Assembly: GCA_900142905.1 (NCBI GenBank)
Contig: FSRV01000003.1
Coordinates: forward strand, 372,001-436,000
Direction of reading: 5' to 3'
Length of the DNA: 64,000 nt
DNA from: Burkholderia sp. GAS332
GTDB lineage: Bacteria > Pseudomonadota > Gammaproteobacteria > Burkholderiales > Burkholderiaceae
Position 1 is the stretch's first letter. Each line of letters opens with the position of its first letter. Shown here in pieces: positions 13,980 through 48,039 of the stretch. The notes under the pieces were generated by a model, which saw only the letters and a list, made by a program, of their open reading frames with translations, was not told where the DNA came from and did no database searches. Both the position numbers and the translations under genes were made by a program.

Positions 13980-14690
13980 AACCACTTGCGCAGTTTGCGC
14001 AATGCGTGCGGACCGTTCACGGCGAAACGCCGCCCATGCCGGATCGAAAGAATCGGAGAAGCACTCAGGCACGAAGGCTTCTTGTTCAAACGCAATCGTC
14101 ACGCGCCGAAAAGAAGCGCAACGAGGAGGACTTCCAGTTGAAGGCCGATACGCTGGCCAAGTTGCAATGCGCCGCTCGCGACGGACAGTGCCGCCTGTTC
14201 TATTTCGACGAGGCAAGCTTCCGTGCAGCACCGCTAGTTCAACGAAGCTGGTCATCACGCGGCTTGCCCCACAGTATCGAGCCCAACAGCCATTGCAAAC
14301 GCAGCGTTGTTGGCGCACTTGACTTCGGCGAGAACGGTTTTATCTACACCGCGAGCGCCACGACGCCAAAGCGTCCCGACGTGATCGAGTTTTTCGACTC
14401 GCTGATCCGGCAAGGCGATGGCCAACCCACCGCAATCGTGCTCGACAACGCGAGTATCGACCGCGACACGCTGGACCGCTGGTTCATCGATCACAAGGAC
14501 TACTATTTTTATTTACCGCCGTATAACCCCAAGCTCAATCTCATCGAAATCATACGGAAAATTTGAGGTACCACTGGCGACGCTTCGTCACCTGGATGAA
14601 GGCGACCATTGACGCCGAACTCGCCGCACTTCTATCCGGTTACGACACCAAATTTCAAATCAGCATCTTGTGGACGCTTAAATCGCCTCG
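13980..14690 (+). pseudogene. IS630-family transposase, frameshifted remnant
   Basis: Pieces in three frames match a single IS630 transposase: R-H-E-G-F-L-F-K-R-N-R-H, then K-K-R-N-E-E-D-F-Q-L-K-A-D-T-L with C-R-L-F-Y-F-D-E-A-S-F (first acidic residue) and I-V-L-D-N-A-S-I (second Asp), Y-L-P-P-Y-N-P-K-L-N-L-I-E-I (catalytic Glu), then after another frameshift near 14562 Y-H-W-R-R-F-V-T-W-M-K-A-T-I-D-A-E-L. The same 3' end occurs inverted at 15.8 kb, so IS630 ends flank the peptidase gene between them. Confidence 0.8.
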
Positions 14691-14762
14691 CATGCAAATG
14701 CCACCATAGCGATGCCCGTTACCGGGCATCTCTCCACGCTAAAATCATGCATTAGAAACAAC

Positions 14763-15788
14763 TTATTCAATGGCGAGAAACGCGTCGATTTCGTAGCCTT
14801 TCACACCAGTTTGTTTTACTGTATTTTGAATGACTTTGAGTATCCGCCGGTTGTGCGATTCGCTAGTCATATTGGCAGCGGTCCAAGTGTATTCTGGCCA
14901 GCCATTTTCGTATGCTACTAGTTCAGACTCTGCCCCAAGGGCCTGAAAGATTACGCTCAGAAAGCCAAAGGACCGGACCTGGTCACCCTTGAAAATTGGA
15001 CTCCCATCGGTAAAGACTGCGTATCGGAGGTCGGTCGGGAGTTGCAGGGTGTCTTCACCTGCGGTCATCAAACTGGCCAGTCGACTCCAAAAATCGTAGG
15101 GATGGGTCTGCGAAAATACTGCCGACTGCATTTCTGCCATGGTGGATGGAAGCGGAATTGTTGGTGTAGCAGGATTCAGAGAGCCCGCTCGGAGAACCCG
15201 TTCTGCCCAATTCGCGGTTGGCTCGATGAGCCAAGACGGCTTGAACCTCGTATACCCGTACTGATACAGATGAAACATCTCGTGGGCAAGCATGCTGTAT
15301 GTTCCTGGGAACTTGTCCAATTTATTAGATATATCGATTCTGATCGAACATGCTCCATCCCTCTGCGGCACAGCCGAATAGCTGGATGGCTCACTATATG
15401 CTAGTCCGTTGTGATCGATATTTCCTACATTCACATCGATAAATGTGGCACCGCGATAGCGAGCGCTCTGAAGAGGGTCGCGAAACCCGTTGAGGTTGAA
15501 CGCTTTTCTAGAAGCCTCTGCCTGTCTTGCCACGTTTTCGATATAGTCAGGCACCCCGTTGGAATTGACATCAGTTTTGTCAACTGCCGCGTGCTCGCCA
15601 GTGAGTGCATAGAACACTCTGATATTGCTCCCAGGCAACACGTATTTCTCCGGGAGAGATGGAATGAAGCCAGTGGAGGCTTTATTGACTTGGCATGTGG
15701 TGACTGGTTGAGCATTCACGCTATGAATGCAAACCGACCCTCCAAGCAGCAACGCAAAAATGGCGTTGGGAATTCTTCTACATGTCAT
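14763..15788 (-). CDS. Secreted HExxH metallopeptidase-like protein
   Basis: 341 residues with a classical Sec signal peptide (basic M-T-C-R-R, hydrophobic A-I-F-A-L-L-L-G-G, cleavage after V-N-A at about 26). Residues 70-83 hold D-x-T-D-V-N-S-N-G-V-P-D-Y-I-E, a calcium-loop-like motif often seen in secreted bacterial peptidases of the MXAN_6640 type. The catalytic motif is H169-E-M-F-H173 in M-L-A-H-E-M-F-H-L-Y-Q-Y-G, and a candidate third zinc ligand follows in W-L-I-E-P-T-A-N-W-A-E. This fits a gluzincin-like secreted zinc protease; substrate unknown. The gene is intact but lies between inverted IS630 3' ends, so it may have arrived with them. AT-richer than its neighbours, which also suggests transfer. 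Confidence 0.8.
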   Translation of the reverse strand: MTCRRIPNAIFALLLGGSVCIHSVNAQPVTTCQVNKASTGFIPSLPEKYVLPGSNIRVFYALTGEHAAVDKTDVNSNGVPDYIENVARQAEASRKAFNLNGFRDPLQSARYRGATFIDVNVGNIDHNGLAYSEPSSYSAVPQRDGACSIRIDISNKLDKFPGTYSMLAHEMFHLYQYGYTRFKPSWLIEPTANWAERVLRAGSLNPATPTIPLPSTMAEMQSAVFSQTHPYDFWSRLASLMTAGEDTLQLPTDLRYAVFTDGSPIFKGDQVRSFGFLSVIFQALGAESELVAYENGWPEYTWTAANMTSESHNRRILKVIQNTVKQTGVKGYEIDAFLAIE

Positions 15789-16302: not shown

Positions 16303-16679
16303 CGTGTATCTCCTTTTCTGGTCGCGATGGCCGCAGCCATCTGATGAAAATTACTGGGGCCGTGCATCGGCTGGGCATAATCGGTTCATCGCTCCCGTCT
16401 CCGGCTGCTCATGTTAGGCAATCGCCTTCTTGAATACGCCTCTCATTGAATACGCCTCTCATTCATCTGCCTGCTTTCGCCCTATGGGCTCGCGGCGGCT
16501 AAACATCTTCTCTCCAGCACCGGAAGCGACCTGAGGGCCCAGCGAAGCACAGTCGATGACCAACCGGATGCCCGCGCTTTCATCATCTACTCGGGATATC
16601 CCAAGCTTAGCGAGTAGGCCACGCATCACCGAACACATAACAGGATCGCATCTAACGAATAATGCAGTGCTTGACTACG
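16303..16679. other. No gene recognised; contains a 16-bp tandem duplication
   Basis: TGAATACGCCTCTCAT is tandemly repeated twice at 16430-16461. The minus strand around 16500-16600 could encode a fragment (A-G-I-R-L-V-I-D-C-A-S-L-G-P), but it is too short to identify. Confidence 0.4.
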
Positions 16680-16756
16680 TCGGGTAGCCGTACCGCATTG
16701 CTGCGGTACAGCCCCCTGAGAACCGTGCGTGCTCCTTTCGGTCGCACACGGCTCAA
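16680..16756 (-). ncRNA. Group II intron domains V and VI (3' end), fragment 1
   Basis: On the minus strand, 16754-16720 reads GAGCCGTGTGCG, then an A-C-C-G-A-A-A-G-G loop region, then GCACGCACGGTTC: the domain V hairpin with the catalytic AGC triad, bulge and GAAA tetraloop. Downstream, 16709-16689 folds as GTACCGC/GCGGTAC, a domain VI stem, and the intron should end close to 16681. With the HNH fragment just upstream this is the 3' remnant of a group II intron. Confidence 0.75.
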
Positions 16757-31642: not shown

Positions 31643-31846
31643 TCACAAGCCGAGCAGACAGGCGCGATATGGGTCGCTGGCGCCGGCCTTGCGGCGACTT
31701 TTCAGTCCGACCTTGGTTTTCGTATCGCGCTTGAGCAGATCATCTGCGATACGACGAAGGATTGCGAAGTTCTGCGCCGCGTTTTCGACCCTCACCCTGC
31801 TGTGATCCTCGCCAAAGGCCATGTCCAGCACCAAGAGCATGTTGTG
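31643..31846 (-). pseudogene. ISAs1-family transposase, C-terminal fragment
   Basis: The minus frame reads L-D-M-A-F-G-E-D-H-S-R-V-R-V-E-N-A-A-Q-N-F-A-I-L-R-R-I-A-D-D-L-L-K-R-D, then K-V-G-L-K-S-R-R-K-A-G, the C terminus of ISAs1-family transposases, including the catalytic Glu region. It directly abuts the 3' end of a group II intron, so the intron had inserted in the transposase gene. Confidence 0.75.
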
Positions 31847-31925
31847 GTGAGTAGGCCGGAGGAATTTCACCCCCGGCCTCTCGCAGAACGGTGCGTGAAC
31901 CTCTCGATTCACACCGCTCCCATCA
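31847..31925 (-). ncRNA. Group II intron domains V and VI (3' end), fragment 2
   Basis: Minus strand 31919-31886 is a 34-nt domain V: GAGCGGTGTGAA, TCGAGAGG loop, TTCACGCACCGTTC, with the AGC triad and a GAGA tetraloop. Domain VI is the GGCCGGGGG/CCTCCGGCC stem at 31878-31854, and the intron ends C-T-A-C-T-C-A-C at about 31847. All features of a bacterial group II 3' end are visible. Confidence 0.85.
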
Positions 31926-32567
31926 GGCAAACGCCCCTGTCATGCCTCGCCGCCAGTGTGCAAACATTCGCGGATGCTTCGTGGCGATGCTCTCCACGAA
32001 GCGACTTGCCCGCGTCTTATGTCCTTTCAGACGTTTGTACTTCCGCATGGCCCATGCAACCAATGTCCGGTTGAAGTGCTGAACACCGGATACATGGCCG
32101 ATGGACAGAACCGCCCGTAATACTCAAACCAGCCCCTCAGGACCGGGTTGTGCAAACGGGCGATGTCCGCCAGACCCAGGGTGGTCCGGTTACGGAAGTT
32201 TGCCTTGCGGGTCGGTGGCCGCATGGATTTCCGCGCAGCCGCACTGACCGCTGGCGTGAAGCTCACAAACATACTGTTGCGTTTGCGATTCTTCACGACC
32301 CGCGACCGAAAGGTGTATCCAAGAAAGTCAAACCGCGTGTTCGGATACTTCCCTTTGCGACTGCCATCCTTGCGGTACACGATCTTGATCTTGGCGGGAT
32401 GCATTTCCAGATGGCACTCTGCCAGCCTCGCCTCAAGCGCAACCTTGACAGCTTGCCCCTCCTGCTCGGGCCGGCAGTGAACCAGGCCGTCATCTGCATA
32501 CCGGCACCAGGGAAGTTCAGGAAACGTTCGGCCCATCCAGACATCAAACGTATAGTCGTAGACCGAC
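31926..32567 (-). pseudogene. Group II intron reverse transcriptase/maturase, C-terminal part
   Basis: Contains the catalytic box W-C-R-Y-A-D-D-G-L-V-H-C, F-D-F-L-G-Y-T-F-R (domain 7) and the maturase region A-R-L-H-N-P-V-L-R-G-W-F-E-Y-Y-G-R-F. A frameshift near 32060 moves the final R-K-Y-K-R-L-K-G-H-K-T-R-A segment to another frame. The N-terminal reverse transcriptase motifs are missing because the Tn7-like element begins at 32568, just upstream of Y-T-F-D-V-W. So the transposon interrupted the maturase gene. Confidence 0.85.
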
Positions 32568-32612
32568 GCAAAAGTGTCACCGTTTCGGCAGTAATTGTGT
32601 CAATCGGCCTAA
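32568..32612. repeat. Tn7-like transposon left end, two TnsB-type sites
   Basis: Outer copy GCAAAAGTGTCACCG at 32568, inner copy GTAATTGTGTCAATCGG at 32591. They share xxxxxxGTGTCA and match the inverted sites at the right end. Confidence 0.65.
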
Positions 32613-32768
32613 ATTACAGTGCTGACAGCAATCTGATCGTTTTGTTGGTGCGCGCCAGCAAGCGAACTGGCGGCGGCGACTGCGGCGAGCGCGCAGACAA
32701 CCGAAATTTCCTCGGGCGTCACCATGGCCCTCGACCCAAGCGACGGGTCAAAGCTCGCTTCGGCCGCC

Positions 32769-33437
32769 CTACAGTAACCCCCGCTCGATATAGACCCGCG
32801 TGATCGCCCGTCGATGCTCCCCCGACAACGGTTGTATCCTGTCCGGTGACGATTTCTTACTGCCGTACCGTGCTCCGCACTCTGCACAGCGATAAGGTGT
32901 CTCGAGCAGGCGCACGTTTAGTAGATACGGCGCTTCATACCCGCACCTCCGGCAAGCTACCTCGAGAGGCAACGAATGTGCGGGGCAAACGACAACCCTT
33001 TCAATCTGGTAGAGCGCGCTGTGGTACCCACAAGCGATGCATCGGCGGCAGTAGCGGAATGACTCGCTACAAGGCCGATGCTGAAGTGCCGGCAGGAGCG
33101 CAGCACGCAGGGCTTTCACCGGCAGATCAAGGGTGCTGCGTAAGCGCTCAAGCTCGATCGCTTCCAGTTGCGGCGCCACCCCTTCGTACGGATCCACACG
33201 CGGCCCCAGCAGTCGTGCGAGAGCGTACCCGGGAAGCGCGTTGGCCGTCTTGAACTTCCACAAGATCGAAACTATGGACTCGTACGGCTCGAGCCATTTC
33301 TCGTTGAAAACGTACCCGAGCGCGGGCGTTAGCGAGCGCTCCTCAAGCGTGAGAATTGGAAAACTCAGCCGCGTTAGCTCCGCAACGCTACGCGGCGGCG
33401 ATGAGGACGCGACCGGTTGCATGGCGTGATTGAACAT
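32769..33437 (-). CDS. tniQ: TniQ/TnsD-like zinc-binding target selector
   Basis: 222 residues. TniQ proteins link the target DNA or a targeting complex to the TnsC ATPase. The N-terminal part has the family's E-S-I-V-S-I-L-W-K pattern. The zinc region shows Y-C-R-R-C-I-A-C-G-Y-H, V-V-V-C-P-A-H-S-L-P-L, A-C-R-R-C-G-Y and Y-R-C-A-E-C-G-A-R-Y-G: several C-x2-C units and a C-x2-H typical of TniQ. It is shorter than most TniQ proteins (usually over 300). A different frame continues for about 50 residues after the stop (A-M-V-T-P-E-E-I-S-V-V-C-A), so a 3' frameshift is possible. Start at 33437 or 33422. Last gene of the operon. Confidence 0.75.
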   Translation of the reverse strand: MFNHAMQPVASSSPPRSVAELTRLSFPILTLEERSLTPALGYVFNEKWLEPYESIVSILWKFKTANALPGYALARLLGPRVDPYEGVAPQLEAIELERLRSTLDLPVKALRAALLPALQHRPCSESFRYCRRCIACGYHSALYQIERVVVCPAHSLPLEVACRRCGYEAPYLLNVRLLETPYRCAECGARYGSKKSSPDRIQPLSGEHRRAITRVYIERGLL

Positions 33438-33515
33438 AGCCGCAGTGATGTACCGCGTAGGCCCACAAAGCGGGTTCCGGACAATAGCCGAACCCGTCCT
33501 TGAGTTCGCTTTCTT

Positions 33516-34367
33516 TCAGGACGATCTCAACGACGCGTGCGAACGACTCCATGGAATCTCCAGGCGCCCAGGCAGACTTGCCTTGTGGTGCGCCGCTTCG
33601 AACGTCCGCCAAAGCGTGTCGGCATCACTGACAAGACGATACCCGGCGTCGAACGCCTGTGGAATATAGAACCGTGTGAAGCTCCACTCGCTTGCTTCAG
33701 GGTACGCGGTCTGGTCGTATCCGTTCAGGCACGTCGCGACATCCCCGGCGTTGCGGATACCGTGGAATGACAGCTCCTCGACCATCAGGCGCGCAACGAT
33801 CTGGGTTTTGGCTGCGATCTGCAGCCCGGTTTTCTGCGCGAGGAGTTCCTGCTGGCCGACGAGGAACGTGAACAGTTTGATCTGCTGCCGGTCGAGCGCG
33901 TCGTGAACATCTCGCAACCACTCGTACTCGTTTTCGTTGTAGCGCTGGGCCTCGTCGCAGAACAGGAGCACCGTTCCGCTGCCAGCGCGCGCCGCTGCCT
34001 CCCGTATCCTCAGCGACAAGCGCATGCGTTTTGATGGATTTGTACCTGCGTTGGGATCCGGGTCGCCGACGGCCTCAAGCAGGTTTGCAAAGAACGGCCC
34101 TTCTGCGTGCCGCGGTTTATGCTCGCACTGCGCGTGGTAGCTCGTCATCTTTGGATGGTTCTGCGCTAACAGCAGGCGAACGTATTCAATCGCGCGCGTT
34201 TTGCCGATCCGGGACGGGCCGTAGATCAGAGCGCCCATGATCCGGTAGCGCAGACAGCGGATGACCAGCTCATAGAAGGCCTCAATGGCGGGCGTGGCGA
34301 TACGGTAATTGCCAGTCACGAGCGGGTGCAGCGACGGGTCGATCGGGCGCGGTATCTGAAGCGACAT
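33516..34367 (-). CDS. tnsC: TnsC/TniB-like AAA+ ATPase, likely frameshifted at C terminus
   Basis: 283 residues as read. Walker A is G50-P-S-R-I-G-K-T57, Walker B V-L-L-F-C-D-E-A-Q (about 133-141), followed by sensor-like F-T-F-L-V-G-Q-Q-E-L. TnsC proteins bind target DNA as ATP-dependent filaments and pass the target to TnsB. ATG 34367 has GGGAGG at ideal spacing. After G-R-L-E-I-P the frame ends in a non-family tail, while the next frame continues M-E-S-F-A-R-V-V-E-I-V-L-K-E-S-E-L-K-D-G-F to about 33388, overlapping the tniQ start. One lost base near 33550 would explain this. If real, the protein has an abnormal last 15 residues and lacks about 55. Confidence 0.75.
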   Translation of the reverse strand: MSLQIPRPIDPSLHPLVTGNYRIATPAIEAFYELVIRCLRYRIMGALIYGPSRIGKTRAIEYVRLLLAQNHPKMTSYHAQCEHKPRHAEGPFFANLLEAVGDPDPNAGTNPSKRMRLSLRIREAAARAGSGTVLLFCDEAQRYNENEYEWLRDVHDALDRQQIKLFTFLVGQQELLAQKTGLQIAAKTQIVARLMVEELSFHGIRNAGDVATCLNGYDQTAYPEASEWSFTRFYIPQAFDAGYRLVSDADTLWRTFEAAHHKASLPGRLEIPWSRSHASLRSS

Positions 34368-34526
34368 GACTCACCTCCCAAAAGCAAAGTCCAGAACTAA
34401 AATACCTGACCGGTGCCGATTGACAGTTTGCGGGGTCGGGCCGCGGTGCCTTGTGCACGATCAACGACACCGTCGGTCGGGGCGGCGGATGTCGCCGTGG
34501 CTTCCCGCGCAGGGGCGACTACTGTT

Positions 34527-36401
34527 TCAGGCTGGCGCGCCGGGCCCGGTGGAGTTTTCGCAGTCGACTGCCGACCCAATCAATCGGTTGACGTTGGCAA
34601 GTTCTGTCGCCTCCTTCCGCGCTGTCTTTGCACCTGCCAGCTTTTCCTTAACATAGGCTTCGATCGGGTCTGGCGCGCCCGCTCCACGTTGACGGCGTTC
34701 GCCTGCCTGCTTCAGGATTTGCTGGCGTAGCTTGAGGTTGTGCGGAATCAGACACCATGACCCTTGCACGTCAAGCACGCCAAGTTCAGCGCCATCGGAC
34801 AGAAATGCCCGGACGCAGCGCAGATCGTCCGTGTTCATATAGACGAGCAACTGCTGGCCGATGAGGTGCGTGCTTGTGGCGAGCACGCGGTTGGTGTAGC
34901 GGGCACCATGCAGATTGATGTGAGGACGCACGCCCTGGTCGAGATACGCCCGAACGCGACACCGCCGCGCCGACTGCATCAGGCAAAGGGTGCGACGGTG
35001 ATGCTCGGCCAGCCACGTTACCAGCGTCTGCTTGCCGCGCACGAAATACCCGATCGCTTCAAGAGGCGTGACGTTGTTCAGGCCGCCGTGTGGCGTACCG
35101 TTGTAACTCGCGATGGCATATTCGACCAACTCTTCAAGCTCGTCGAACGAGACATACAACCGCAGGTTACCCTTGGGGTCGCTCAGCGCTCTGCGCAGAT
35201 CGCGTGGGTGGGACCCTGTGTAGCCTGGCAGGCGGGAAGACAGCCGACTTGCGATCGTGCCGAAGAACCGTTCGATGTAAGGCCGTTCGTCCGGGCTGTA
35301 TTTTGGTCCGGCGTCAACAAGACACCCGATAAACTCACACAACGCGGTCAACGTCTCGTTCGCGAGGTTAGCCCTCCCGTTGCCGAGCTTCATCCATTCC
35401 CAGGTGGCATACGCCAGCTCCGGTAGCCGTTGCGACGGAAAGCCGTCCTGCGGCCCGTATGTCAGGCCAGCGATGGTGAAACTTCGCTCACGATGTGGCT
35501 CCAGAGCCTTCTCGATCGTCTTGATGACGTCGTAACGGCTGTATTCTTTCCCAACTGCAATGTGATATCCGAGCACGGCGCGTGTGCAGACATCGATGAT
35601 GACAAGGAGCCACGCCCGGTCGATCTCGAACTCATGCTCAAAGCCAAGCGGGTCACGCGTGACCACCTTAAGTCGGATATCAAGCCGGTGGCCGTCGAAT
35701 TCGACCACCTGATACGGGCGGCTCGCTGCCGTGACACCCGCGTCGGTCGGGCGTGGCAAGCCCTTGAGATGCGAAGCGCCCGCCGACCGCGCTGCTGTGT
35801 CGAAGCGACGCAACAACTCTGCCTTCACGCGTCGCGACAGGGAACGGATCGCGTTGTCTGAGGTGTTGAATGGGTAATCGCCGGCAGTCAGTCCGACTGT
35901 GCGACATTGGCGGAGAAATTCATCGTGCAACGCTTGCAAACCGCTTAGACGGGTTCGCAGCCCCGAGTCCGTATGTATCTTTACGAGCAGTACCTTGCGT
36001 TGCTTGAGCTTCAGCAGCAGCCAGCCTGTCAGGGCCGGGTATTGCTCGAACAGGAGCGATAGCGCTCCTGCTGCCCCATAGCCACCGCAATCGCAACCGG
36101 TCTCCACGGCTCTTACCCGCGTATATTCCGCGATGCGCGTGTAACGCACGAGCGCGCGGAAACCATACGGTCTTCCATCCGGGTGCGGCAACGTAGCGCG
36201 TTCAAGCAAGCGGTACAGCTGACGACGGTTCACCCCTGTTGATAGCTCGATCGATTTGACCGACTCTCCGGCGGCATAGCGCACGACGGCCTGCCTGCGT
36301 TTTTCGAAAACTCGCCGCGCGACCTCGTCGAGTTCTGTATGCGCAACGGTCGGCCAGACGCTCACGTCGATCGCCTGCAACTCGGTCTTCCAGTGGTTCA
36401 T
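34527..36401 (-). CDS. tnsB: TnsB/TniA-like DDE transposase, catalytic Asp apparently replaced
   Basis: 624 residues with an rve core and Mu-type C-terminal domain. First catalytic Asp: Q-V-V-E-F-D236-G-H. Catalytic Glu: D-E-R-P-Y-I-E377-R-F-F-G-T-I. Between them the family expects D-N-[AG]; here M-K-L-G340-N-G-R-A-N-L-A has Gly at the Asp position (codon GGC, one change from GAC). If the alignment is right, strand cleavage and joining would be lost. N-terminal helix-turn-helix: V-K-S-I-E-L-S-T-G-V-N-R-R-Q-L-Y-R-L-L. ATG 36401 overlaps the tnsA stop (ATGA), so coupled. Near 34575 one extra base in a C-run shifts the end; in the other frame the tail runs to 34397, close to tnsC. Confidence 0.85.
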   Translation of the reverse strand: MNHWKTELQAIDVSVWPTVAHTELDEVARRVFEKRRQAVVRYAAGESVKSIELSTGVNRRQLYRLLERATLPHPDGRPYGFRALVRYTRIAEYTRVRAVETGCDCGGYGAAGALSLLFEQYPALTGWLLLKLKQRKVLLVKIHTDSGLRTRLSGLQALHDEFLRQCRTVGLTAGDYPFNTSDNAIRSLSRRVKAELLRRFDTAARSAGASHLKGLPRPTDAGVTAASRPYQVVEFDGHRLDIRLKVVTRDPLGFEHEFEIDRAWLLVIIDVCTRAVLGYHIAVGKEYSRYDVIKTIEKALEPHRERSFTIAGLTYGPQDGFPSQRLPELAYATWEWMKLGNGRANLANETLTALCEFIGCLVDAGPKYSPDERPYIERFFGTIASRLSSRLPGYTGSHPRDLRRALSDPKGNLRLYVSFDELEELVEYAIASYNGTPHGGLNNVTPLEAIGYFVRGKQTLVTWLAEHHRRTLCLMQSARRCRVRAYLDQGVRPHINLHGARYTNRVLATSTHLIGQQLLVYMNTDDLRCVRAFLSDGAELGVLDVQGSWCLIPHNLKLRQQILKQAGERRQRGAGAPDPIEAYVKEKLAGAKTARKEATELANVNRLIGSAVDCENSTGPGAPA

Positions 36402-37042
36402 GATCCTGCCTCCGCCTCTACAAATGACGACAACAGAGACAATGGCTGGGTGTGAAGCTCCGGTGCCTTGACTCGCCCGCTGTACAACAAGCCAAACAAC
36501 GCCGCACGGCATAGAACCGGATCGCCGGTCGAAAACTCACGCTCGATGGCAAGTAGTCTCTGAGGCACAGCAACGAACCGCACGATCGCCTCCGACAGCG
36601 TCGGTGAGATAAGGCCATGGTTGGCGACAACATAGGGCAACATGCGCTGCCAGTTCTCAATCCAGACCCGTCCGGCGGCAAGCTCAGCCGGGCCGACTCG
36701 ACGGATGGCTAACGCGTTGCCATCGATTGAACGTTGGGAACTCATCGCCTCGTGCAAGCTACTGTCAGCATCACAGCCTGTTAGGACTGCAAATTCATCA
36801 TGATCAACGTAACGAACCAGAAAATCCGCGAGCCGTAGGCGCCCTTCCATCTGTATGTAACCGGGACGCTCGCAGAAAGCGACCACCGCCGGATCCGTCT
36901 CTAACAGCACCCACAACTCAAGCAGGGAATGTCGACAGAACGTAACCCGGCGCTGCAGCTTGGCGCTGAATGCTTCGAACCGATGCGCGCCTCGTGGTCG
37001 CACGAGCGCGATGGGTTTGACCAGCGGCAAGGACAATTCCAT
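36398..37042 (-). CDS. tnsA: TnsA-like endonuclease subunit, non-canonical active site
   Basis: 214 residues, first gene of the transposition operon. TnsA cuts the non-transferred strand so that transposition is cut-and-paste. The N-terminal nuclease-fold part has H-S-L-L-E-L-W-V-L-L-E-T-D-P-A-V-V-A-F-C-E-R-P-G (candidate Glu, then the typical E-x-P strand) and R-L-A-D-F-L-V-R-Y-V (candidate Asp). The E/Q-x-K that should follow about 15 residues later is not visible (F-A-V-L-T-G-C-D). The C-terminal half (W-I-E-N-W-Q-R-M-L-P-Y, then C-R-A-A-L-F-G-L-L-Y-S-G-R-V-K-A-P) is winged-helix-like, as in TnsA. ATG 37042. Identity is inferred from position and fold pattern. Confidence 0.65.
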   Translation of the reverse strand: MELSLPLVKPIALVRPRGAHRFEAFSAKLQRRVTFCRHSLLELWVLLETDPAVVAFCERPGYIQMEGRLRLADFLVRYVDHDEFAVLTGCDADSSLHEAMSSQRSIDGNALAIRRVGPAELAAGRVWIENWQRMLPYVVANHGLISPTLSEAIVRFVAVPQRLLAIEREFSTGDPVLCRAALFGLLYSGRVKAPELHTQPLSLLSSFVEAEAGS

Positions 37043-37081
37043 GAGATCCACGCCTTCAAGACGGGATTCGAAGTGTAGGAG

Positions 37082-37128
37082 GCGAATTGACGAATTTAAT
37101 ACGTATATATGCGAATTGACACTTTTGC
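37082..37128. repeat. Tn7-like transposon right end, two TnsB-type sites
   Basis: GCGAATTGAC occurs at 37082-37091 and 37111-37120; the outer copy continues as ACTTTTGC, the complement of the left-end GCAAAAGTGTCA. Confidence 0.65.
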
Positions 37129-37140
37129 TCCGCTTGGTAC

Positions 37141-38755
37141 GAGAGCGTGCAAAAGTTGGGGAGGTGCATTTTGTCAGGCATCCCGGGCTTATGACATGAC
37201 TGCATTGTCTGTTCTGTCCGTTCGCCGGCGCCCGCCTGCCGACGTTGGCCCGATGCATTTCCCGTAACGCGAGTCGGCAGTTTTGAGCGCCAGAATGCGA
37301 TGGGACGAGAATTCCCCGTTCAGAACCGCGACTCTGACCTGTGCCATGCAGTGCGCCCCTTCGTCAGTCCAGCGCATCTGTCGCTTCTTGGCCATACGGT
37401 GGCTGACGACCTGGTTCACCGCGGACTCGGCAATGCTGCTGCTGATCGGGAGACCTTTGCGATGCCGGGCGCTGTAGTTGACCAACGTGTGCGCGTTGTT
37501 CCTCAGATAACTGGAGACGGTGTTCAGATTCCACCAAAGCGTTTTGAATTCGTATCCCTCTCTCGCCAGCAGCCGACTGTCCAGTGCCTTGATCCGCTCC
37601 ACCGCCTTGCTGCCCTTGCCATGCCAGACCAACCACTTCGCGTGGGTGATTTCGGTCTCCACCGACTCCTGGTCCATCGAGTCGATCATCTTGCTGCCGA
37701 ACACGGAACGCTGCGCCGCCTGGAACTTCATCGCGATGTGGAACCAGTCGAGGATCCGGCCGCGAGCCAGCTGACTGCCCTCGACGGTTTTTGAAAATTC
37801 ACCAGCGTCGTCGCTGATCACGGTCACGCGTTCATCGCTCGCCACACCGTTCCGGCTGAGGAACTGATCGAGCCGCGCTGCAGCCGAGGTGACTTCCCTG
37901 TGCACATACGCATACAGTTTTGGAGGACCATCGGTGAACGTCGCCCGCCCGGCGACGATATTCACGTGGCGGCCAGGGCCTCTCCCTGAGTCGCAATTGC
38001 GCAGCCACGCCGAGTCGACGCTCACGGCCGCGACATGGCTGGATTCGCGAACCTGCACGTCTGCAACGGCTTGAGGTAGCTTCGCGATGTCACGCTCGAT
38101 GTCAGCGTCGAGCTGTTTTCCAAGAGTGTGAATCCGATCCCGGGTGCCGCTGAACGAAATGCCCTTGTCCAGCGGGAGCACTTCCTTAAGCATGGCCGCG
38201 GCCTGCCGGTATGGCAGATGGACTGCCCACTTCGCCTGGAGATATTCCAGTTCCGGCGTGACGCGCGTGGTTAGGGTTTGGGACAAGGGATGCACCACAC
38301 GCCGCGGCGTCCGCGCATTCCGCTGGCAAGCACACGACCACAGCCGCGGACTCTTCACCATCACTTTGCCGTACACGGTGCGCAGCACCGTCGAGCGACT
38401 ATCCTTATGACTCAAGGCCGCACCGCAGCTCCGACAATGGGTCTGGCCTGAGAGCCACGACTGCACCTGTTTCGAAATGAGCCCGGCCTGCACCTTGGCC
38501 AGCAGCGACCGCCCTTCCGCGAGAGTCAGGCCCAGTTCGGCAAGACAGCAGTCAGGGCGCTCAATCACAGCCAGAACTCCGTCACCTACCTCGACCGTAT
38601 CATTGTCTCCGTCGGCCAACCTTGCTTCGATGATCAACCGCATGACTTGCTCCCACCGTTGCGAGACCGATCAGCCTACTCCAGACGAAACCGATGCCGC
38701 TACCGGAAGCACAAGCGGCCCTCCTTGGGAGCCTCCCCAGCTTTTGCACGCTCTC
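37141..38755 (-). mobile_element. ISKra4-family insertion sequence
   Basis: Bounded by inverted repeats GAGAGCGTGCAAAAG-Y-TGGGGAGG (24 bp, one mismatch) at 37141-37164 and 38732-38755. It contains one intact transposase gene. No clear target duplication was seen. It lies 12 bases outside the Tn7-like right end. Confidence 0.85.
37189..38643 (-). CDS. ISKra4-family transposase
   Basis: 484 residues, full length for the family. An N-terminal zinc-ribbon-like region is visible (H-C-R-S-C-G-A-A-L-S-H-K-D and S-C-A-C-Q). The DDE core shows A-A-V-S-V-D-S-A-W-L-R (first Asp), V-T-V-I-S-D-D-A-G-E-F (second Asp), L-D-W-F-H-I-A-M-K, and S-I-A-E-S-A-V-N-Q-V-V-S-H-R-M-A-K-K-R-Q-M-R-W (catalytic Glu and the family's closing motif R-W-x-x-x-G-A-H). 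ATG at 38643; the gene runs almost from end to end of the element. Confidence 0.92.
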   Translation of the reverse strand: MRLIIEARLADGDNDTVEVGDGVLAVIERPDCCLAELGLTLAEGRSLLAKVQAGLISKQVQSWLSGQTHCRSCGAALSHKDSRSTVLRTVYGKVMVKSPRLWSCACQRNARTPRRVVHPLSQTLTTRVTPELEYLQAKWAVHLPYRQAAAMLKEVLPLDKGISFSGTRDRIHTLGKQLDADIERDIAKLPQAVADVQVRESSHVAAVSVDSAWLRNCDSGRGPGRHVNIVAGRATFTDGPPKLYAYVHREVTSAAARLDQFLSRNGVASDERVTVISDDAGEFSKTVEGSQLARGRILDWFHIAMKFQAAQRSVFGSKMIDSMDQESVETEITHAKWLVWHGKGSKAVERIKALDSRLLAREGYEFKTLWWNLNTVSSYLRNNAHTLVNYSARHRKGLPISSSIAESAVNQVVSHRMAKKRQMRWTDEGAHCMAQVRVAVLNGEFSSHRILALKTADSRYGKCIGPTSAGGRRRTDRTDNAVMS

Positions 38756-39433
38756 CCCGTTAGCGAAGCAATGTTGTCAATTCAATGGCTAAACCGTTGT
38801 CCCCACGAGCACAGTCCAGTGACAACATTCCTTCGTTTTACGCATGTCCAGTAATTGCGCTAGCGTGCCTTGCATGTGCTGTTAATCAATTCGTGCATCG
38901 CACTTTACCTCGAAGCCGCAGCACCGCTTTTCGCACAGGAGACGTCTCGCGGATTATGGCCGCGGCCGAACACTACCACGCGTGCTAATCAAAATAGCTC
39001 TTTGCACAAGAGCTAAAGTTATCTTTCCTTAAACCAGATAACAAAACACAGAAGCGCTTTCTGACTGCATGCGGCCGGTAACGATCCTGAACTCCACCCA
39101 AAAAAAGTGTCCCTCGGATCGCATCGTCCGTAAGACTTGATATCCAGCACCGATGCCACGCTAGCAGAGTTACCGAACAAGCATCATCACGATTGTTGTA
39201 CCGTCGCGACAGGCGTGATCGCACGTAACGCGTTACGCAGCAAGCCATCCCGGCGTTTTGGCCGCTAGCATTCATGTGAACATGGCTAGTGGCAATTGTG
39301 AGCACCAACACTGGCTCAGACCCGTACCCATAACCGTACGGCGGCCCGTAAGACCTGCCGCAAGCGCGAAAATAGTACGCCCAGCGCCGAACGTTCGCGC
39401 GTTCATCGCGAACCAGTTCGGCACTGAGCCATC
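38756..39433. other. No gene recognised; one perfect 10-bp inverted repeat
   Basis: AATGTTGTCA at 38770-38779 and TGACAACATT at 38820-38829 form a perfect inverted repeat with a 40-bp loop. A long minus-strand frame across 38985-39515 has no domain and poor coding character. The transcription end of the OmpA/adhesin operon should lie here, but no clear terminator hairpin with a T-run was found. Confidence 0.5.
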
Positions 39434-40236: not shown

Positions 40237-43200
40237 CTACCATTGCATGGCCGCACCCATCCCGAAGGTTGTGCCGCCGGGGCTCATACCGACGCCTGCT
40301 TTCATCTTGATGTTCTCGGTGATACGCGCGGTTCCGCCGAGCGCGACGGCCTGATAGCCGCGGAAGCCCGCCGTGCCGACGCCAAATGACAACGTCTTGT
40401 CCTTGTCGACCTCCGGAATCATCGTCAATGCCGTCGCTGCGGCGATGCCGGAATAGGCATTGCGCGCGACGGAGTTGATTCCCGACTGCAATTGATCCAC
40501 CCGTTGATCGGTATAGGCATTGGCCTGTGCGAGCCCGGCATTGAGCTGGTCCACGTTGACCGCGTCCGTCCCCTGGGTTCCCGCAGCCACGTTTGCCACC
40601 TGCCGCGTGTCGTTAAGTGAGCCGACGGATACCACGTTGTTTCGGCCTCCGTCCGTGCTATTGGAACCCAGCGCCACCGAGTTATTCCCACTCGCGGCTG
40701 CTCCGACGCCTACCGCGGTCGCGCCATTCGCGCTGGCTTGCGAACTGTTACCGACCGCCGTGCTATTCGAGCCGGAAGCTACCGAGCCCTGCCCGCCCGC
40801 CGACGAATTCGAACCCGTGGACGCGGGTGAAGAACCAGGAGTGGACGAGAAGGGGGCACCGCCGCCACCCCCGTTTTGATTATTGATCAGCGTGGTCAAC
40901 TGCGTGGTGACTGCGGCAAGCTGGCTTACGTTGACCGCATCGGTGCCAGCCTTGCCGGCTGCCACGCCAGTGATCTGCCGATTGCCGATATTGACCTCGC
41001 CCGCGGACGACTGCGGACTGCTCAGTCCGTACGCAATGTAGTTGCTCAACGCGCCAACTGTGGTCACCGATCCCGCTCCCAGCGCAACGCTGTTTGCCAT
41101 CGTCGCGCTCGCGCCCGGGCCCATCGCGACCGCATCGATGGCGCTGCTTTGCGCCCCCGAGCCGATAGCAATGCCGCCTGCATTCGCAGCCTTCGCGTTC
41201 GCCCCTTGTGCGATCGACTGGGCGCCGCTTGCGATGGAGCCGCTGCCGAGTGCAATCGCGTCGGCCTGCGCCGCGTTCGAGCTTTCGCCGATCGCGACAC
41301 CGCCCGGTGCAGTCGAATCGACGATGGCGCCGTTGCCGATGCCCACGCCGTTGTCACCGTTGACCACCGTCGTCGGTCCGACGGCAATCGACTGCGCGCC
41401 GACCGCCAGCGAATCCGCCGCCGTCGAATTCGCGTGAAAGTACATCTGTCCGGTCACGGCGAACGACGACAGCGCACCTGCAAGCTGCCTGATGGTGACC
41501 GCATCCTGTGCCTGCGTGCCGTCTGCGACGTTGGTCAACTGGCGATAGGTATTGCCGGTCGCGCTGCCGAAAGATACTGCGCCGAGCAGCGTTTGATCCG
41601 ACGTGTTGAAGGGAATCGCATGGGTGCCATTCGCAATTGAACCGATGCCCGACAGGACCGCGCGATTGGACACCGATCCCGAGCCGATCGCGACCCCGCC
41701 GGCCACCGAGGCGCTCGACAGAGCGCCCAGTGCAAGCGCGTTGTCCGCCTGCGCGGCAGCGCCGTTGCCGCCGGCGAAGCTGCTCACGCCGCTTGCCGTC
41801 GCCCCAACGCCCGCCGCCAGCGCATTGACGCCGGTGGCGCCATCGTTGTTGTAGTTGCCGCCCTGCGTGCCGCCATCGTTGACGCTGTAGTAGTGCGTCT
41901 TGCTGGCCGTCACTACGCTAGCGAGGCTGTCGACCGCCTGATCCGTCGCGTACAGCTGCGAGCCGTTCACCGCGTCGGTGCTGGTCGCGCCCACCCGGCC
42001 TGCCGCCACATTGGTCACCGTACGCTCGTTACCGGCGCTGCCCACGCTCACCGTGCTCGTCGGAGCAGTACCCGCGTATGTGTAGGCCGTTCCGTTGATC
42101 GTGTCGCCGGTCGTTGCCACTGCCGCAGCCGTGGTCGAACCGCTGCCCAGCGCAACGGCATTGGTGTTATTCGCCACTGCGCCCTGACCCAGGGCCGTGC
42201 TGTTGGCGCCGGCCGCGGTGGCGGCGACACCTGCCGCAAGCGCGTTGGTGCCGGTGGCGCCGTCGTCGGCATAGTTAGCACCCTGAGTACCGCCGTCGTT
42301 GACGCTGTAGTAGTGCGTCTTGTTGGCGGTTACCGTTGTGGACAGACTGCTGACTGCCTGATCGGTTGCATACAGCTGCGAGCCGTTCACTGCGTCGGTA
42401 CTGGTCGCGCTCACCCGGCCTGCCGCCACGTTGGTCACCGTGCGCTCGTTACCCGGGCTGCCCACGCTCACCGTGCTCGTCGGGGCAGCCCCGGCGTACG
42501 TGTAGGCTGTGCCGTTGATCGTGACACCCGTCGTCACCACCACCGCGGCGGTTGCCGATGCGCTGCCCAGCGCCACGCTATTGGCGAACGTCGAGCTGGC
42601 GCCGGCGCCAAGCGCGACAGCGTCGGTTGCGCTGCTTTGCGCGCCGGAGCCGACCGCAACGCCGCCCTGATTTGCGGCATTCGCGTTGGCGCCCTGAGCA
42701 ATCGATTGCGCACCGCTCGCGACGGCGCCGCTGCCAAGCGCCATTGCGTCGGCCGCAGCCGAATGCGATTGCTGGCCGATCGCGACGCCGCCGGGCGCCG
42801 TCGCATCGACCACGGCGCCGTTGCCAACGCCGACGCCGTTGTCGCCGTTCACGACGGTCGTCGGTCCAACTGCGATCGACTGCGCGCCCACGGCCAGCGA
42901 ATCGGCCGCGGTCGAATTCGCGTGAAAATAGTTCGTGCCCGTCACCGAGAACGATGACAATGCGCCCGCGAGTTGCCTGACGGTGACGGCGTCTTGCGCC
43001 TGCGTGCCGTCGGCGACATTGGTCAACTGACGGTAGGTCGTGCTACTGCCGACGGACACCGCACCCAGCAAGGTCTCGTCGGAAGTATTGAACGGAATCG
43101 CGTGGGAGCCGTTGGCGATAGATCCGACTCCAGGCAGAACCGTGCGATCCGAAACCGATCCCGATCCAATCGCCACGCCGCCGACGATTGAGGCACTCGC

Positions 43201-46200
43201 TTGCAGTCCAAATGCCAGTGCGTTGTTCGCCAGCGCCTGGGCACCGTTGCCCAACGCCGTGCTGCTCGCCCCCGAAGCCAGAGCTCCGACGCCCGCGGCG
43301 AGGGCGTTAACGCCAGTGGCGCCGTCGTCGGCATAGTTTGCACCCTGTGTGCCGCCGTCGTTGACGCTGTAGTAGTGCGTCTTGTTGGCGGTTACCGTCG
43401 AGGACAGCGTGTCGACTGCCTGATCGGTCGCATACAACTGCGAGCCGTTCACCGCATCGGTACTGGTCGCACTCAACTGGCCCGCAGCAACGTTCGTCAC
43501 GGTGCGTTCCGCGCCGACCGTGCCGACACTCACCGTACTCGCCGGCGTGGTGCCGGCAAACGTGTAGGCGGTGCCGTTGATGGTGGCGCCTGTCGTCGCC
43601 ACCGCTGCAGCGGTGGTACTTCCTGCACCCAGGGCCACCGCGCCGGCATTGGAGACCTTGGCTCCGGAGCCGATCGCGACGCCTTGCGTCGCAGCGGCCG
43701 ACACCGTTGCAGCGTCACCTAGGGCGACTGAACCGGCATTGTTCGCCTGCGATGCGTTGCCCAGCGCTACAGAACCCTGACCGGTCGACAGGTTGCCATT
43801 GCCAAGCGCAACTGCACCCTGGCCGTTGGACGTATTGTTGGCGCCCATCGTTATCGCACCTGTACCGGTCGCCGAGTTCGGATCGCCGATGGCGACCGCG
43901 CCATCGCCGCTGGCAGTATTGCCGACGCCAATCGACACGGCGTGGCCACCTGTCGCCGTTGCCGTCTGACCTATCGCTATGGCGCCGGCCGTATTCGCGG
44001 TTGCCCCGGCCCCCTGGGCGATCGAATTGCCACCAGTGGCCTGAGCTCCGTTACCCAGGGCAATGTCGTTGGCCGTCGCGGGTGTGCCGCTCACGCCGGC
44101 TACCGCATTCAGGCCCTGCGCGATTGAATCGTTGCCGAAAGCATCGGCAGCCGGCCCCACTGCAATCGCGTCGGTGCCGGTTGGAACGCTGTCCGCCAGC
44201 ACCGAATTGGTGTGAAAATATTTGATCCCGGCGCCATTGTTGATGTTTGAGATCGCCGTGGTATTGGCCGTTACCTGCTGGTTGGTGGCAAACAGCTGCG
44301 AACCATTAACCGCGTTCGTACTCGTGGCGCTCAGTTGCCCTGCCGCCACATTCACAATCTGCCGTTCGGCGCCTGTCGTGCCCACACTCACGACACCGGC
44401 CGGCGTACCGCCGGCAAATGTATAGGCCGTGCCACCAATGGTCGCACCAGTGGTCGCGACAGCGCCTGTTGTCACGGTGCTGCCCTGGCCCAGCGCAACA
44501 TTGCTGCCGGTCGTGCCCGCGGCAATGCTTGCACCCTGGCCCAATACCGTCGCATTGGCATTGCCGTTGTCAGTAGACCGGTTACCCACCACCGTGGAAG
44601 ATGCACCCGTCGCGCTCGCACCGAAACCACCGGCACTGGCATTGGCTCCGCTCGATACCGGTTGTACCGCCGTCACGCTGTTGTTCGATACAAACGGACC
44701 AGCCTGTCCGTTGACGATAGACGTCACATTCTGGTTCGTGGCGAATAGTTGCGACCCATTCACGGCATCCGTGCTCGTCGCGTTCAATGCAGCGGGCGCC
44801 ATGTTGGTGATCATCACCGGAGATCCCGCTCCCGATCCGCCAGTCGCGCCGAGGGTAATTTTCGTGCCACCCGCCGCGTCGTACTTGACTGCGATATTTG
44901 CCGTGTTATCAATATTCGTGTTCAGTGCGGTCAAGGCACCCGCAACCGTCGTCTGGTCAGTTGGCCCGGTCACAGCCCCGGTACTGCCCACGCTGTTGAT
45001 CGGCTGGCTAAAGCCGGTGAGATTACCGGTAGCTGCGCTATAGCTAGCGCCGCCGCCTAATGTGCTCGCTGTCGACGTGCCCAGGTTATTGATGCCAGTG
45101 ACAACCGTATTCAGCTGCGAGCCGTTGATGGCATCGGTACTGGCAGCAGAGATCACACCCGCCGCCACGTTTTGCAGTTGCCGCTCCTTCCCGGCCGAAC
45201 CAACCGACACCACGCCATTGCTCGCGCTCGCGATTCCGGCCGCCGTGCCGCCGTAAAGCGCAGCGGTACCCGTATGGGGTGTTGCGGTTGTACTTCCCGC
45301 GCCCAGCGCCACGTCGTTCGCGTTGCTGGCAGTCGCGTTTGGTCCGATCGCAACGCTATCCGTGCCCAACGCCTGGCTGTCCGGTGCGCTTGAGTTCGCG
45401 TGGAAGTACTTGATGCCCGGCGTCGTGCCACCACCGGTCAGGGAGTTAACAAGGTTCTGCACTGAAGTGTAGGTGTTGCCGCCGTAGCTCAGGCCGGTAG
45501 TCAACGCACCGGTCGTGGTGTTGTAGGTGCTGCCACCGCCCAAGCTGGAGGCCACGCTGTTGCCCAGACTGCTCACCTGGCCACTCAGCGCATGGCCCAC
45601 GTTGTACAACTGGCTGCCGTTCACCGCATCGGTACTGGTGGCGCTCACCTCGCCGTCGGCCAGTTGAGTAATCTGGCGCTGACCGACCGCCACCGCACCG
45701 TTGGTCGGCGCCTGGTGTACGGTGAAAGTCTGGCCGTTCACCACGGCATTGGCCGTCGTGTAGGTAGTGGTCGCGTCCGCTCCGTTGCTGGTCGTGCCGT
45801 TACCGAGCGCGACATCCCCCGCGCCGTTGGCCACCGCGCCCGAACCCACCGCTGTGCTGTTGGTCCCGGTCGCCGTTGGCGCCGTATACGTGGTCGGATT
45901 ACCGGTGATCCACCTGTTTGCCGCCGAGGCGGTCGAGCTGGTCAACTGACTGACGTTCACCGCATCGGTTGGATTGACCCCCGCGGCGAGGTTGGTGATA
46001 GTGACACCGCCCGCGGGGGCACCTACGCCACCGGTCGCGCCGAGGGTAATTTTCGTGCCACCCGGCGCGTCGTACTTGACCGCGATATTTGCCGTGTTAT
46101 CAATATTCGTGTTCAGCGCAGTCAAAGCACCCGCAACCGTCGTCTGCGCGGTCGGTCCGGTCACAGCCCCGGTACTGCCCACGCTGTTGACCGGCTGGCT

Positions 46201-48039
46201 AAAGCCGGTCAGATCGCCGGTCGCCGCGCTATAGCTTGCGCCGCCGCCCAAGGTGCCCGCTGTCGACGCGCCGAGATTATTAACGCCGGTGACAACGGTA
46301 TTCAGCTGCGAACCGTTGATTGCGTCGGTGCTGGCAGCCGAAATCACGCCCGCTGCCACGTTCTGCAGTTGCCGCTCCTGGCCTGCGGAGCCAACCGACG
46401 CCACGCCGTTGGCCGCGTTTGCGATGCCGACCGCCGTACCGCCATAAAGCGCAGTGGTGCCCGTGTGTGGCGCTGCGGTTGTACTGCCCGCACCCAGCGC
46501 GACGTCGTTTGCGTTGCTGGTTGACGCGCCGGCACCCAGCGCGATCGCTTTGGCCTGGTTGGCCACCGCCGAATCGCCGAGCGCCAGCGCGCTCGCACCG
46601 TTCGCATTGCTCGCGTTGCCCAGCGCGACCGCGCCTTGACCATTGGCGGTATTGCCGTTGCCCTGCGCTACCGCGCCATTGCCCGTGGCGGTATTGTTCG
46701 CACCCACGGCGACCGCACCATTGCCTGTCGCGGTATTGGGATCGCCAATCGCGACCGCGCCGTTACCGCTGGCGGTCTGCGCCTGACCGAGCGCTACTGC
46801 GCCGGTCCCACCGAGCACCTGCGAGTTATGGCCACCGGCGAACGACCCGGCGCCGGCTGCGGCAGCGACGGTGCTGCCGTCGCCGATGGCAACCGTGGAG
46901 GCGGCGAGCGCTCTCGCAGCATTGCCGATGGCGGACGCATTGGCCGCGTTAGCCGTTGCGGAGGTACCCATGGCGAGGGCATCTGTGTTGGCGCCCGTCA
47001 GAGCCGAATCACCTATCGCAATTGACGAGGAGCCACCCGAGCTCGCGCCAGAGCCGATCGCAATGGCGCGAATGCCCGACGCCGCGGCGCCCGCCACTGT
47101 CGCTGGGGCAGACGCGCCGCCTTCCGCGACAGAATCCGCTCCGCCCAACGCTATTGCATTAGCACCACTCGCATTGGAGCCGTTCATCATGCCGAGAGAG
47201 TTGAGCCCTGAGGCGGCGGCGCCCGCCCCCAATGCCACCGCATTCTGTGCCGAGGCTGTGGACACTGTGCCGGCGGCCAGCGAAGAGGGGCCGGAAGCAG
47301 TGACATCCGTGCCAATGCCAATCGCCCCCGCCGCCGTTGCACCCGTGCCTGCGACGGAACGCGGCCCAAGATAAACCGCGTTGAGGCCGCTGGCGATGGA
47401 CTGAAAGCCGACAGCGACGGCATGCGTCCCGGCGGCATTGGCGACATAACCCATCGCGACGGCTGCAGGCCCGCTCCCCACCGCCTGGAAGCCAATCGCG
47501 GTGGCATAGTCGGCGTTAGAGACGGCGTCAGTGCCAATACCAATGGACGACGAGCCGCTAGAGGTGACATCCGTACCGATGCCAATCGCCGACTGTGCGG
47601 TCGCGCCGGTACCCGCAGCAGTGCGCGCGCCCAGGTAAATGGTGTTGGTAGCACTGGCAATGGCTTGAAAGCCGAAGGACAAGGCATTAAGTCCCGTACT
47701 GCTGGCGGCATAACCCACCGCAGTGGCTCCGCCTCCAGAGGCTGTGGACTGAAAACCCACGCACGTGGTGCTGCCACTATAAAAGTTATAGGGCGCCGCC
47801 GAGCAGCTCACCTGCGCCTGCGCCTGTGCGCCCCATCCGCCCAAACCCATCAGCAACAGTATGGCGACGACATGAGGACCGGAACCGTGCGGTGCCGAAG
47901 CACGATGCTCACCGCTGCGCCCGTCGCATGCTGAGGCAGCCGCCCCTGACTTTCCTTTGCCGCGCGACGCGTCCAGCTCCGACGCGGCTACGAAGGCGCC
48001 TAACGCCTTGTTCCAGATGGTCCGATATGCCTTGTTCAT
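40237..48039 (-). CDS. Giant trimeric autotransporter adhesin (YadA/BpaC-like), 2600 residues
   Basis: A trimeric surface adhesin. N terminus: extended signal peptide [20 protein letters not shown], hydrophobic core about 60-75, cleavage after A-Q-A-Q-A. The passenger is a long array of head repeats (A-x-G-x-x-A-x-A-x-G / A-I-A-I-G) with neck motifs N-V-A-A-G-x-[IVL][13 protein letters not shown][YF] recurring many times. A block of about 430 residues with [14 protein letters not shown] and [12 protein letters not shown] is duplicated near the C terminus. The anchor (last ~75 residues: [10 protein letters not shown] ... G-A-A-M-Q-W) is the YadA barrel ending in aromatic Trp. GGTGAGG precedes ATG 48039. 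Followed by the OmpA-like lipoprotein. Ligand not predictable. Confidence 0.95.
41040..43390. repeat. Long internal duplication in the giant adhesin gene
   Basis: About 41040-41900 and 42540-43390 encode closely similar blocks (both with S-I-A-N-G-[ST]-H-A-I-P-F-N-T-S-D and V-V-N-G-D-N-G-V-G). [14 protein letters not shown] is encoded three times (near 41890, 42310, 43370). Confidence 0.75.

Follow-up and report, generated by a model that had tools for sequence, protein, structure and literature searches.

A compact, often cargo-free Tn7-like transposon family of Burkholderiales with a TnsA that lacks the motif lysine

Relation to described Tn7-like systems

Tn7-like transposons, broadly defined, combine TnsB and TnsC with TnsA and/or TniQ (PMC11406308). 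Here, a family of such elements is described, starting from one copy at 32557..38842 in a stretch of 64,000 nucleotides from Burkholderia sp. GAS332 (contig FSRV01000003.1 of assembly GCA_900142905.1, positions 372,001 to 436,000 of the forward strand), which as a whole is called the window. Relatives at other loci are given L numbers and genomes G numbers. The overall best reading, to which we assign a probability of roughly two thirds, is that of a compact Tn7-like element whose TnsA has been disarmed and which would move by copying.

Benler et al. (2021) reported cargo, one gene or more, in 96% of 6,549 delineated Tn7-like transposons and linked loss of tnsA together with gain of a resolvase to replicative transposition (PMC8649781). 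The same article states that catalytic TnsA mutations in Tn7 abolish cut-and-paste and leave replicative transposition unimpeded. Type V-K CRISPR-associated transposons (CASTs) have no working TnsA, and cointegrates are expected (PMC11406308); the pseudonuclease in PMC10761935 is Cas12k. Tn6022 has the partner TnsF and inserts in comM (PMC10293859). Neither a natural TnsA without the lysine nor the present family was found in the literature searched, mostly freely accessible papers, and the available parts of PMC10293859 and PMC10702557 do not describe the family.

With Tn7 and those Tn7-like elements that have TnsA and TnsB, the family shares the gene order, the TnsB core, several TnsB-type sites at each end and, where one is present, a 5-bp target duplication. 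It differs in that most copies with two ends are free of cargo, TnsA is without the motif lysine and TniQ is very short, and furthermore in a divergent pair of sites in the right end and in termini reading CGTAG..CTACG instead of TGT..ACA. These termini and the single TniQ of 222 amino acids (aa) place it outside Tn7 proper; no search for TnsE or an att site was made. The situation resembles that of the Tn7 TnsA mutants, as a TnsA that is present but does not cut would leave copy-in. Here, however, the alteration read from the sequences was not made in a laboratory; it occurs in nature, extends over the lineage and is subject to selection.

Replicative transposition, as predicted here, and a tyrosine recombinase in the cargo forms would link the family to the Tn5053/Tn402-type elements and the tnsA-less branches of clades 2 and 3 (PMC8649781). 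In contrast to these, tnsA is kept and overlaps tnsB, and the compact forms contain no resolvase gene. The window element does not belong to the Tn5053/Tn402 type, which lacks tnsA and has a resolvase within the element; between its termini no resolvase gene was seen in the list of open reading frames (ORFs) or by profile scans. Type V-K CASTs have in common with the family the absence of a working TnsA, which is inferred here, and a TnsB that can be distantly aligned, whereas the family has a TnsA homologue and its compact form leaves no room for Cas12k. Tn6022 does not fit either, since the compact form has no further gene of TnsF size (no TnsF profile search was made) and the target in the window is a group II intron reverse transcriptase gene. 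Insertion sequences of the IS26 type are small, move by copy-in, are often without target duplication as single copies and cause adjacent deletions; their machinery consists of one gene and is unrelated to this family.

Genes, termini and relatives of the family

The four genes are located on the minus strand in the order tnsA-tnsB-tnsC-tniQ, as claimed in an original prediction made from the letters of the window and borne out by the ORF coordinates. Here, tnsA (36398..37042, 214 aa, an open frame) overlaps tnsB (34527..36401, 624 aa, a DDE transposase) by the predicted ATGA at 36398-36401; tnsC (33516..34367, 283 aa, an AAA+ ATPase) and tniQ (32769..33437, 222 aa) follow, the latter being a short form whose homologue in the relative L010 is equally long. 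TnsA is matched by NF033179 at 6.9e-6, below the cut-off of that profile, TnsB by rve_3 at 1.2e-4, below the Pfam cut-off, TnsC by AAA_22 at 1.7e-12 and TniQ by Pfam TniQ at E=1.1e-4, again below cut-off. Solved TnsB chains match the window TnsB at 3e-5 as a single sequence and at 3.9e-10 as a profile of eight relatives, and the TnsB core can be aligned to the TnsAB chain of a type I CAST. The profile matches are weak but concordant and support the identities of all four proteins, and TnsB, TnsC and homologues of TnsA and TniQ are united in one element, as in the broad definition of a Tn7-like transposon. Because the window TnsA is without a Pfam match and TnsB and TniQ stay below the cut-offs, surveys based on PF08722, PF00665 and PF06527 may largely miss the family.

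To judge from the sequence matches, its hosts are Paraburkholderia, Caballeronia, Burkholderia, Cupriavidus and Trinickia. Some match is present in 71 of 144 genomes of the genus, many of the matches being short; 35 plasmid records have a DNA match, eight of them with at least 80% of the query covered, and 27 loci were taken from genome contigs. Besides its single copy, the genome of the window itself contains a 120-bp piece of another relative. L010, with 99.3% identity over 4.59 kb, and L015, with 84.7%, are the closest full-length relatives, and both are complete and cargo-free.

The termini became clear by comparison with these relatives. On the tniQ side, the left terminus with its outer TnsB-type site lies at 32557..32579 (plus strand, 5'-CGTAGACCGACGCAAAAGTGTCA), 11 bp outside the boundary of 32568 that had been proposed; the edge at 32557 is common to L010, L015, L005 and others, and the flanks diverge immediately outside. 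A second, inner left-end site, AATTGTGTCA, is located at 32593..32602 (plus strand), arranged as in L010, and the inner right-end site at 37088..37097 (minus strand, AAATTCGTCA in sense) follows its neighbor with a start-to-start distance of 29 bp in most relatives displayed. Related inner sites had been predicted for both ends and are indeed found there. The perfect 12-bp inverted repeat of the original prediction is present as well and is real, because the same motif occurs at fixed positions in relatives. Its right copy at 37117..37128 (minus strand) is nevertheless not the right end: the relatives extend further out and keep the spacing of an outer site and a terminus, which makes it an internal site about 90 bp within the terminus.

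In the closest relatives, homology ends on both sides at the terminus 5'-CGTAGACCG(n)AAA.TGTCA, and the outer terminus CGTAGACCG...TGTCA at the right end of intact relatives mirrors the left terminus 32557-32579. From the tnsA side inward, the terminus is followed at +63 bp by an outward-facing site (TGACA.TTTT), at a further +30 bp by an inward site (AAAA.TGTCA) and at a further +29 bp by a weaker inward site. These spacings are kept in most of the 21 relatives displayed, in most of which the outermost motif is also identical; a terminus of TGTAG is seen only in L011 and L023, which are one 14.8-kb stretch occurring twice (99.8%) and for which no left end was called. The right end holds two TnsB-type sites facing away from each other, 20 bp apart, an unusual arrangement. 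The possibility that the divergent outer site belongs to the end of an adjoining second element was rejected, because the 30-bp start-to-start spacing is kept in most aligned relatives, the outer site covaries with the inner one (TGGCA in L011/L023) and the terminus lies 63 bp beyond. Copies of the family have inverted TnsB-type sites, putative by sequence, at both ends; the window copy has a complete left end and a right end divided by an insertion sequence (IS). Solitary pieces resembling the window left end were observed in L086 (near 7874-8362, approximately 490 bp, 84%, with a tniQ remnant) and in L087 (approximately 240 bp, 81%).

For a census, matches to tnsA and tniQ were required in one cluster, and the best terminus upstream of tnsA and the best downstream of tniQ were taken. 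This yielded 59 clusters, 29 of them two-ended and 25 of these distinct. The distinct copies measure 4.5-4.8 kb in 23 cases and 9.7 and 22.6 kb in the other two; an intact compact element of about 4.6-4.7 kb contains solely tnsA-tnsB-tnsC-tniQ between its termini. The calls for L014, L092, L016, L064 and L077 are doubtful; in L077, the rule picked a right terminus differing from the one otherwise seen. Among the remaining ones, there are up to three mismatches. Excluding the five, 18 of 20 copies are compact and a 5-of-5 target duplication is still present in none. L003 was left out of the census, because the terminus at its far end is that of a divergent element. The idea that the element always bears cargo was rejected on the basis of these compact copies, and we regard it as almost certain that the compact four-gene Tn7-like family is real. 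A Tn7-like module without cargo can evidently exist and spread, with at least 18-23 distinct copies.

The original prediction was to be refuted by homologous elements with more distant ends and cargo. The homologous ends do lie further out, and cargo-bearing relatives exist alongside the compact ones, namely L009 and L022+L082. The L022+L082 element spans 15.0 kb by coordinates and carries a DUF3701 tyrosine recombinase adjoining tniQ, a flavin adenine dinucleotide (FAD)-linked oxidase, a methyltransferase, a partial transporter and a gluconolactonase-like protein. In L009 (9.66 kb), the cargo consists of a tyrosine recombinase beside tniQ and a KfrA_N protein, so that both cargo forms examined have a tyrosine recombinase of their own. 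A possible relative of 22.6 kb with uncertain ends is L079 (Caballeronia sp. Lep1P3 plasmid p3), which has arsenic genes between tniQ and the distant terminus. On Cupriavidus necator pBB2 (L119, 11947-21253), two tandem tnsB-tnsC-tniQ-like sets without annotated tnsA are accompanied by a tyrosine recombinase.

TnsA and the mode of transposition

The active-site residues of Tn7 TnsA are a catalytic Glu and Asp and an (E/Q)xK motif. Among 49 distinct intact TnsA ORFs of the family, the Asp is invariant, the Glu column contains Glu in 31, Asp in 16 and Ala in two, and the motif lysine is absent from all; a lysine within four columns of the motif position occurs in a single row. The family TnsA is therefore without the Tn7-type nuclease motif. 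In a wider comparison, the strict lysine-type motif was found in 0 of 141 family homologues versus 52 of 57 proteins around L118, a system with a nuclease-type TnsA. Both types of TnsA can be aligned (hhalign 96.8%, E 2.2e-10), and PF08722 matches the L118 TnsA at 4.3e-12, but none of 30 family members at E<=1. The lysine is present, by eye, in the six TnsA proteins of the genus that were displayed (14 extracted, 16 found); the sister systems L116, L117, L122 and L065b, like the family, are without it. A TnsB tree of 13 rows does not settle the deep branching and is compatible with one loss of the lysine or with several. A search of the PDB with TnsA returned unrelated chains only, and global hhalign of the TnsA family against TnsA ORFs from the genus produced no useful result. 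The L118 record (CP079755, labelled Klebsiella grimontii) has its Tn7-like operon beside an operon resembling a cyclic-oligonucleotide-based antiphage signaling system (CBASS); as a Bacillus cereus protein shares 95% identity with the TnsA encoded there, the record may be mislabelled or reflect a recent transfer.

The ratio of nonsynonymous to synonymous substitution rates (dN/dS), taken over pairs with a dS of 0.05-1.2, has a median of 0.225 for TnsA (149 pairs), compared to 0.216 for TniQ (82), 0.121 for TnsB (81) and 0.073 for TnsC (112). This median indicates that TnsA is maintained by purifying selection.

From the genes, the ends, the missing motif and the flank patterns, all of which are read in the DNA, we infer that TnsA does not cut, that the element is copied and that TnsA is kept for another role. 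TnsB would join the 3' ends to target DNA, TnsC together with the short TniQ would select the target and TnsA would serve as a non-cutting structural or regulatory subunit. Since the 5' ends would stay uncut, replication would result in a cointegrate, if the reaction takes place between molecules, or in an adjacent deletion or inversion within one molecule. Resolution would be left to homologous recombination of the host, unless the element carries a tyrosine recombinase. We consider such a copy-in mechanism probable, and the support for it comes from indirect genome signatures, namely the lack of perfect target duplications in the census copies, the half-loci around L010 and a pair of copies in the genome PGU19.

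None of the 25 distinct copies called by the census rule has a perfect 5-of-5 target duplication. Cut-and-paste would yield duplications, and so would copying followed by resolution. The left flank of L010 consists of the 3' portion of a gene for what is presumably a KbaZ/GatZ-like aldolase subunit; the gene is uninterrupted at the corresponding point in the window genome, G065 and G052, and the right flank runs on uninterrupted in G030. When the L010 genome was searched for the missing 5' portion and for the missing right continuation, neither was found beyond short weak matches. In the window, the left end cuts the gene of a group II intron reverse transcriptase/maturase, of which the 3' half is left at 32027..32556 (minus strand; TIGR04416 positions 207-334 / 196-334), with domain V of the interrupted intron at 31846-31921. 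Its 5' half was not recognized among 14 reverse transcriptase matches in the window genome, three of which, partial mid-model matches in long open frames, were left unexamined. Intramolecular copy-in would be expected to leave behind such half-loci as in L010 and in the window; deletions of another kind could produce them as well. A further group II intron domain V match is located at 16679-16756.

PGU19 contains two copies on two replicons, identical over 4681 of 4681 bases, and the right flank of one copy shares ACGAG with the left flank of the second. Joined with a single ACGAG, these flanks match uninterrupted loci in G110, G072, G047 and G023 (positions 1-694 or 1-696 of 700, 74-76%) and another place in PGU19 itself (75%). 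Because the joined flanks rebuild uninterrupted loci, one insertion site seems to be divided over two replicons.

Several observations weigh against copying by an element with a disarmed TnsA. In TnsA, the Asp is invariant, a looser motif search detects a lysine shifted by several residues toward the C-terminus in five of the 141 homologues, and Cys-Glu is followed by Arg (CERP) in 138 of the 141, compared to Gln in 56 of 57 proteins of the L118 group. With the Asp kept and with Arg in the position of the usual Gln, the site could be rewired and still active. The predicted TnsA structure (mean predicted local distance difference test score of 62.9, mostly <60 in the nuclease half) has too low a confidence in the nuclease half to judge the geometry of the active site. 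Concerning the duplications, four of five bases agree in L015, and perfect ones exist outside the census rule in L042 (GCCAC) and L022+L082 (CCAGC); the scoring was done without a control set of lysine-bearing Tn7-like copies. The ACGAG of PGU19 is the one 5-of-5 match among 600 cross pairs of flanks, with approximately 0.6 expected by chance, although most of these pairs are between genomes and little informative and this one carries weight because both copies are within one genome. The uninterrupted loci furthermore differ from PGU19 in the bases right at the join, and the position of the copies on separate replicons needs further recombination. As the L010 assembly is a draft with about 390 contigs, the failure to find the lost halves does not prove that they are gone. 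Finally, the compact share is biased: two of the 59 clusters have neither end and 19 have a right terminus but no left one (contig or stretch ends, or a distant left end), so that cargo-bearing or cut copies are under-counted.

An ordinary cut-and-paste element, in which TnsA is still a nuclease with the CERP Arg in place of the lysine and duplications were lost by later rearrangement, would account for the Asp, the Arg, the purifying selection and the two perfect duplications. It is difficult to reconcile with a motif Glu that is Asp or Ala in 18 of 49 proteins, with 25 copies lacking a perfect duplication and with L010 as a clean join of two loci, and we consider it unlikely. Even less probable is an exchange of flanks by homologous recombination between dispersed copies, which would remove the duplications whether or not TnsA cuts; the identical PGU19 copies with one split target and the several matches in many genomes would fit, but the window genome has a single copy, and the lost halves of L010 were not found elsewhere in its genome. 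Alternatively, the compact copies might be core-only derivatives of the cargo form that depend on its tyrosine recombinase in trans, as the recombinase beside tniQ in L022+L082 and L009 and the close relationship of the tns genes of both forms would allow. The large number of compact copies among those with both ends argues against this, and we see little chance for it.

If copying with a disarmed TnsA is correct, the family would be a natural intermediate between Tn7 elements with a nuclease and replicative ones without tnsA. It would also be a natural test case for the Tn7 switch between cut-and-paste and copy-in, in which TnsA is kept for reasons other than cutting, and would bear on the retention of TnsA in some elements, on the cointegrates that CAST tools tend to form and on rearrangement in multi-replicon bacteria. 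We are evenly divided on the wider picture of a Tn7-like lineage of Burkholderiales whose TnsA has become a conserved pseudonuclease and which, mostly four-gene, cargo-free and IS-like, reshapes multipartite genomes by copy-in with deletions, inversions and replicon fusions.

Decay of the window copy and its surroundings

The copy in the window has lost essential parts. The second catalytic Asp of TnsB, which aligns with the corresponding Asp of solved TnsB, is replaced by Gly; it is Asp in 41 of 42 intact ORFs of the family, the window being the sole exception, so that the intact DDE triad of a working copy is missing. Furthermore, the conserved C-terminal tail of tnsB is lost through a frameshift, and tnsC is frameshifted to 283 aa compared to 326 aa in L010, its lost tail being readable in another frame at 33388-33612. 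The frameshifts could be assembly errors, which is less likely for the substitution and the IS.

This IS splits the right end at 37141..38755 (minus strand) and has perfect outer inverted repeats of 15 bp. Its transposase (37189-38643) matches NF033572 at 9e-83 with 278.7 bits versus a cut-off of 205, and together with the repeats this assigns it by sequence to the ISKra4 family. The outer right terminus follows beyond it at 38756..38842 (minus strand), with the divergent site at 38770-38779 and the terminal site at 38820-38842, and is of the L074-L077 subtype, whereas the inner element is of the L010 subtype. This suggests that the right end is a recombinant of two related transposons and the locus a mosaic.

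The TnsB substitution, the two frameshifts and the split right end make it almost certain that the copy cannot move, and there is very little doubt that 32557-38842 is a decayed, mosaic and dead one. The compact four-gene transposon of the original prediction thus holds for the family, and the window copy is a broken member with a split hybrid right end and damaged tnsB and tnsC. That it might itself be complete, minimal and mobile, bounded at 32568 and 37128, was suggested by the perfect 12-bp inverted repeat and the four adjoining genes; with termini elsewhere, a right end interrupted by ISKra4 and the damage to both genes, this has practically no probability left. Taken alone, the window copy is a dead remnant of little interest.

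By eye, the IS leaves 14 bp beside each flanking site, compared to the native spacer of 20 bp. An ISKra4-family element in L021 (7546-9280) is also located 14 bp from the inward right-end site, by eye; the two elements are only 63% identical in aa and lie in two different transposon subtypes, which suggests that ISKra4-type elements hit this right-end spot repeatedly. In L067 (sense 14578-14916), the right end of a relative lies inside an ISKra4-family transposase gene. Beside the window element, at 40237-48039, a repetitive protein of 2600 aa is encoded, which by eye is YadA-like.

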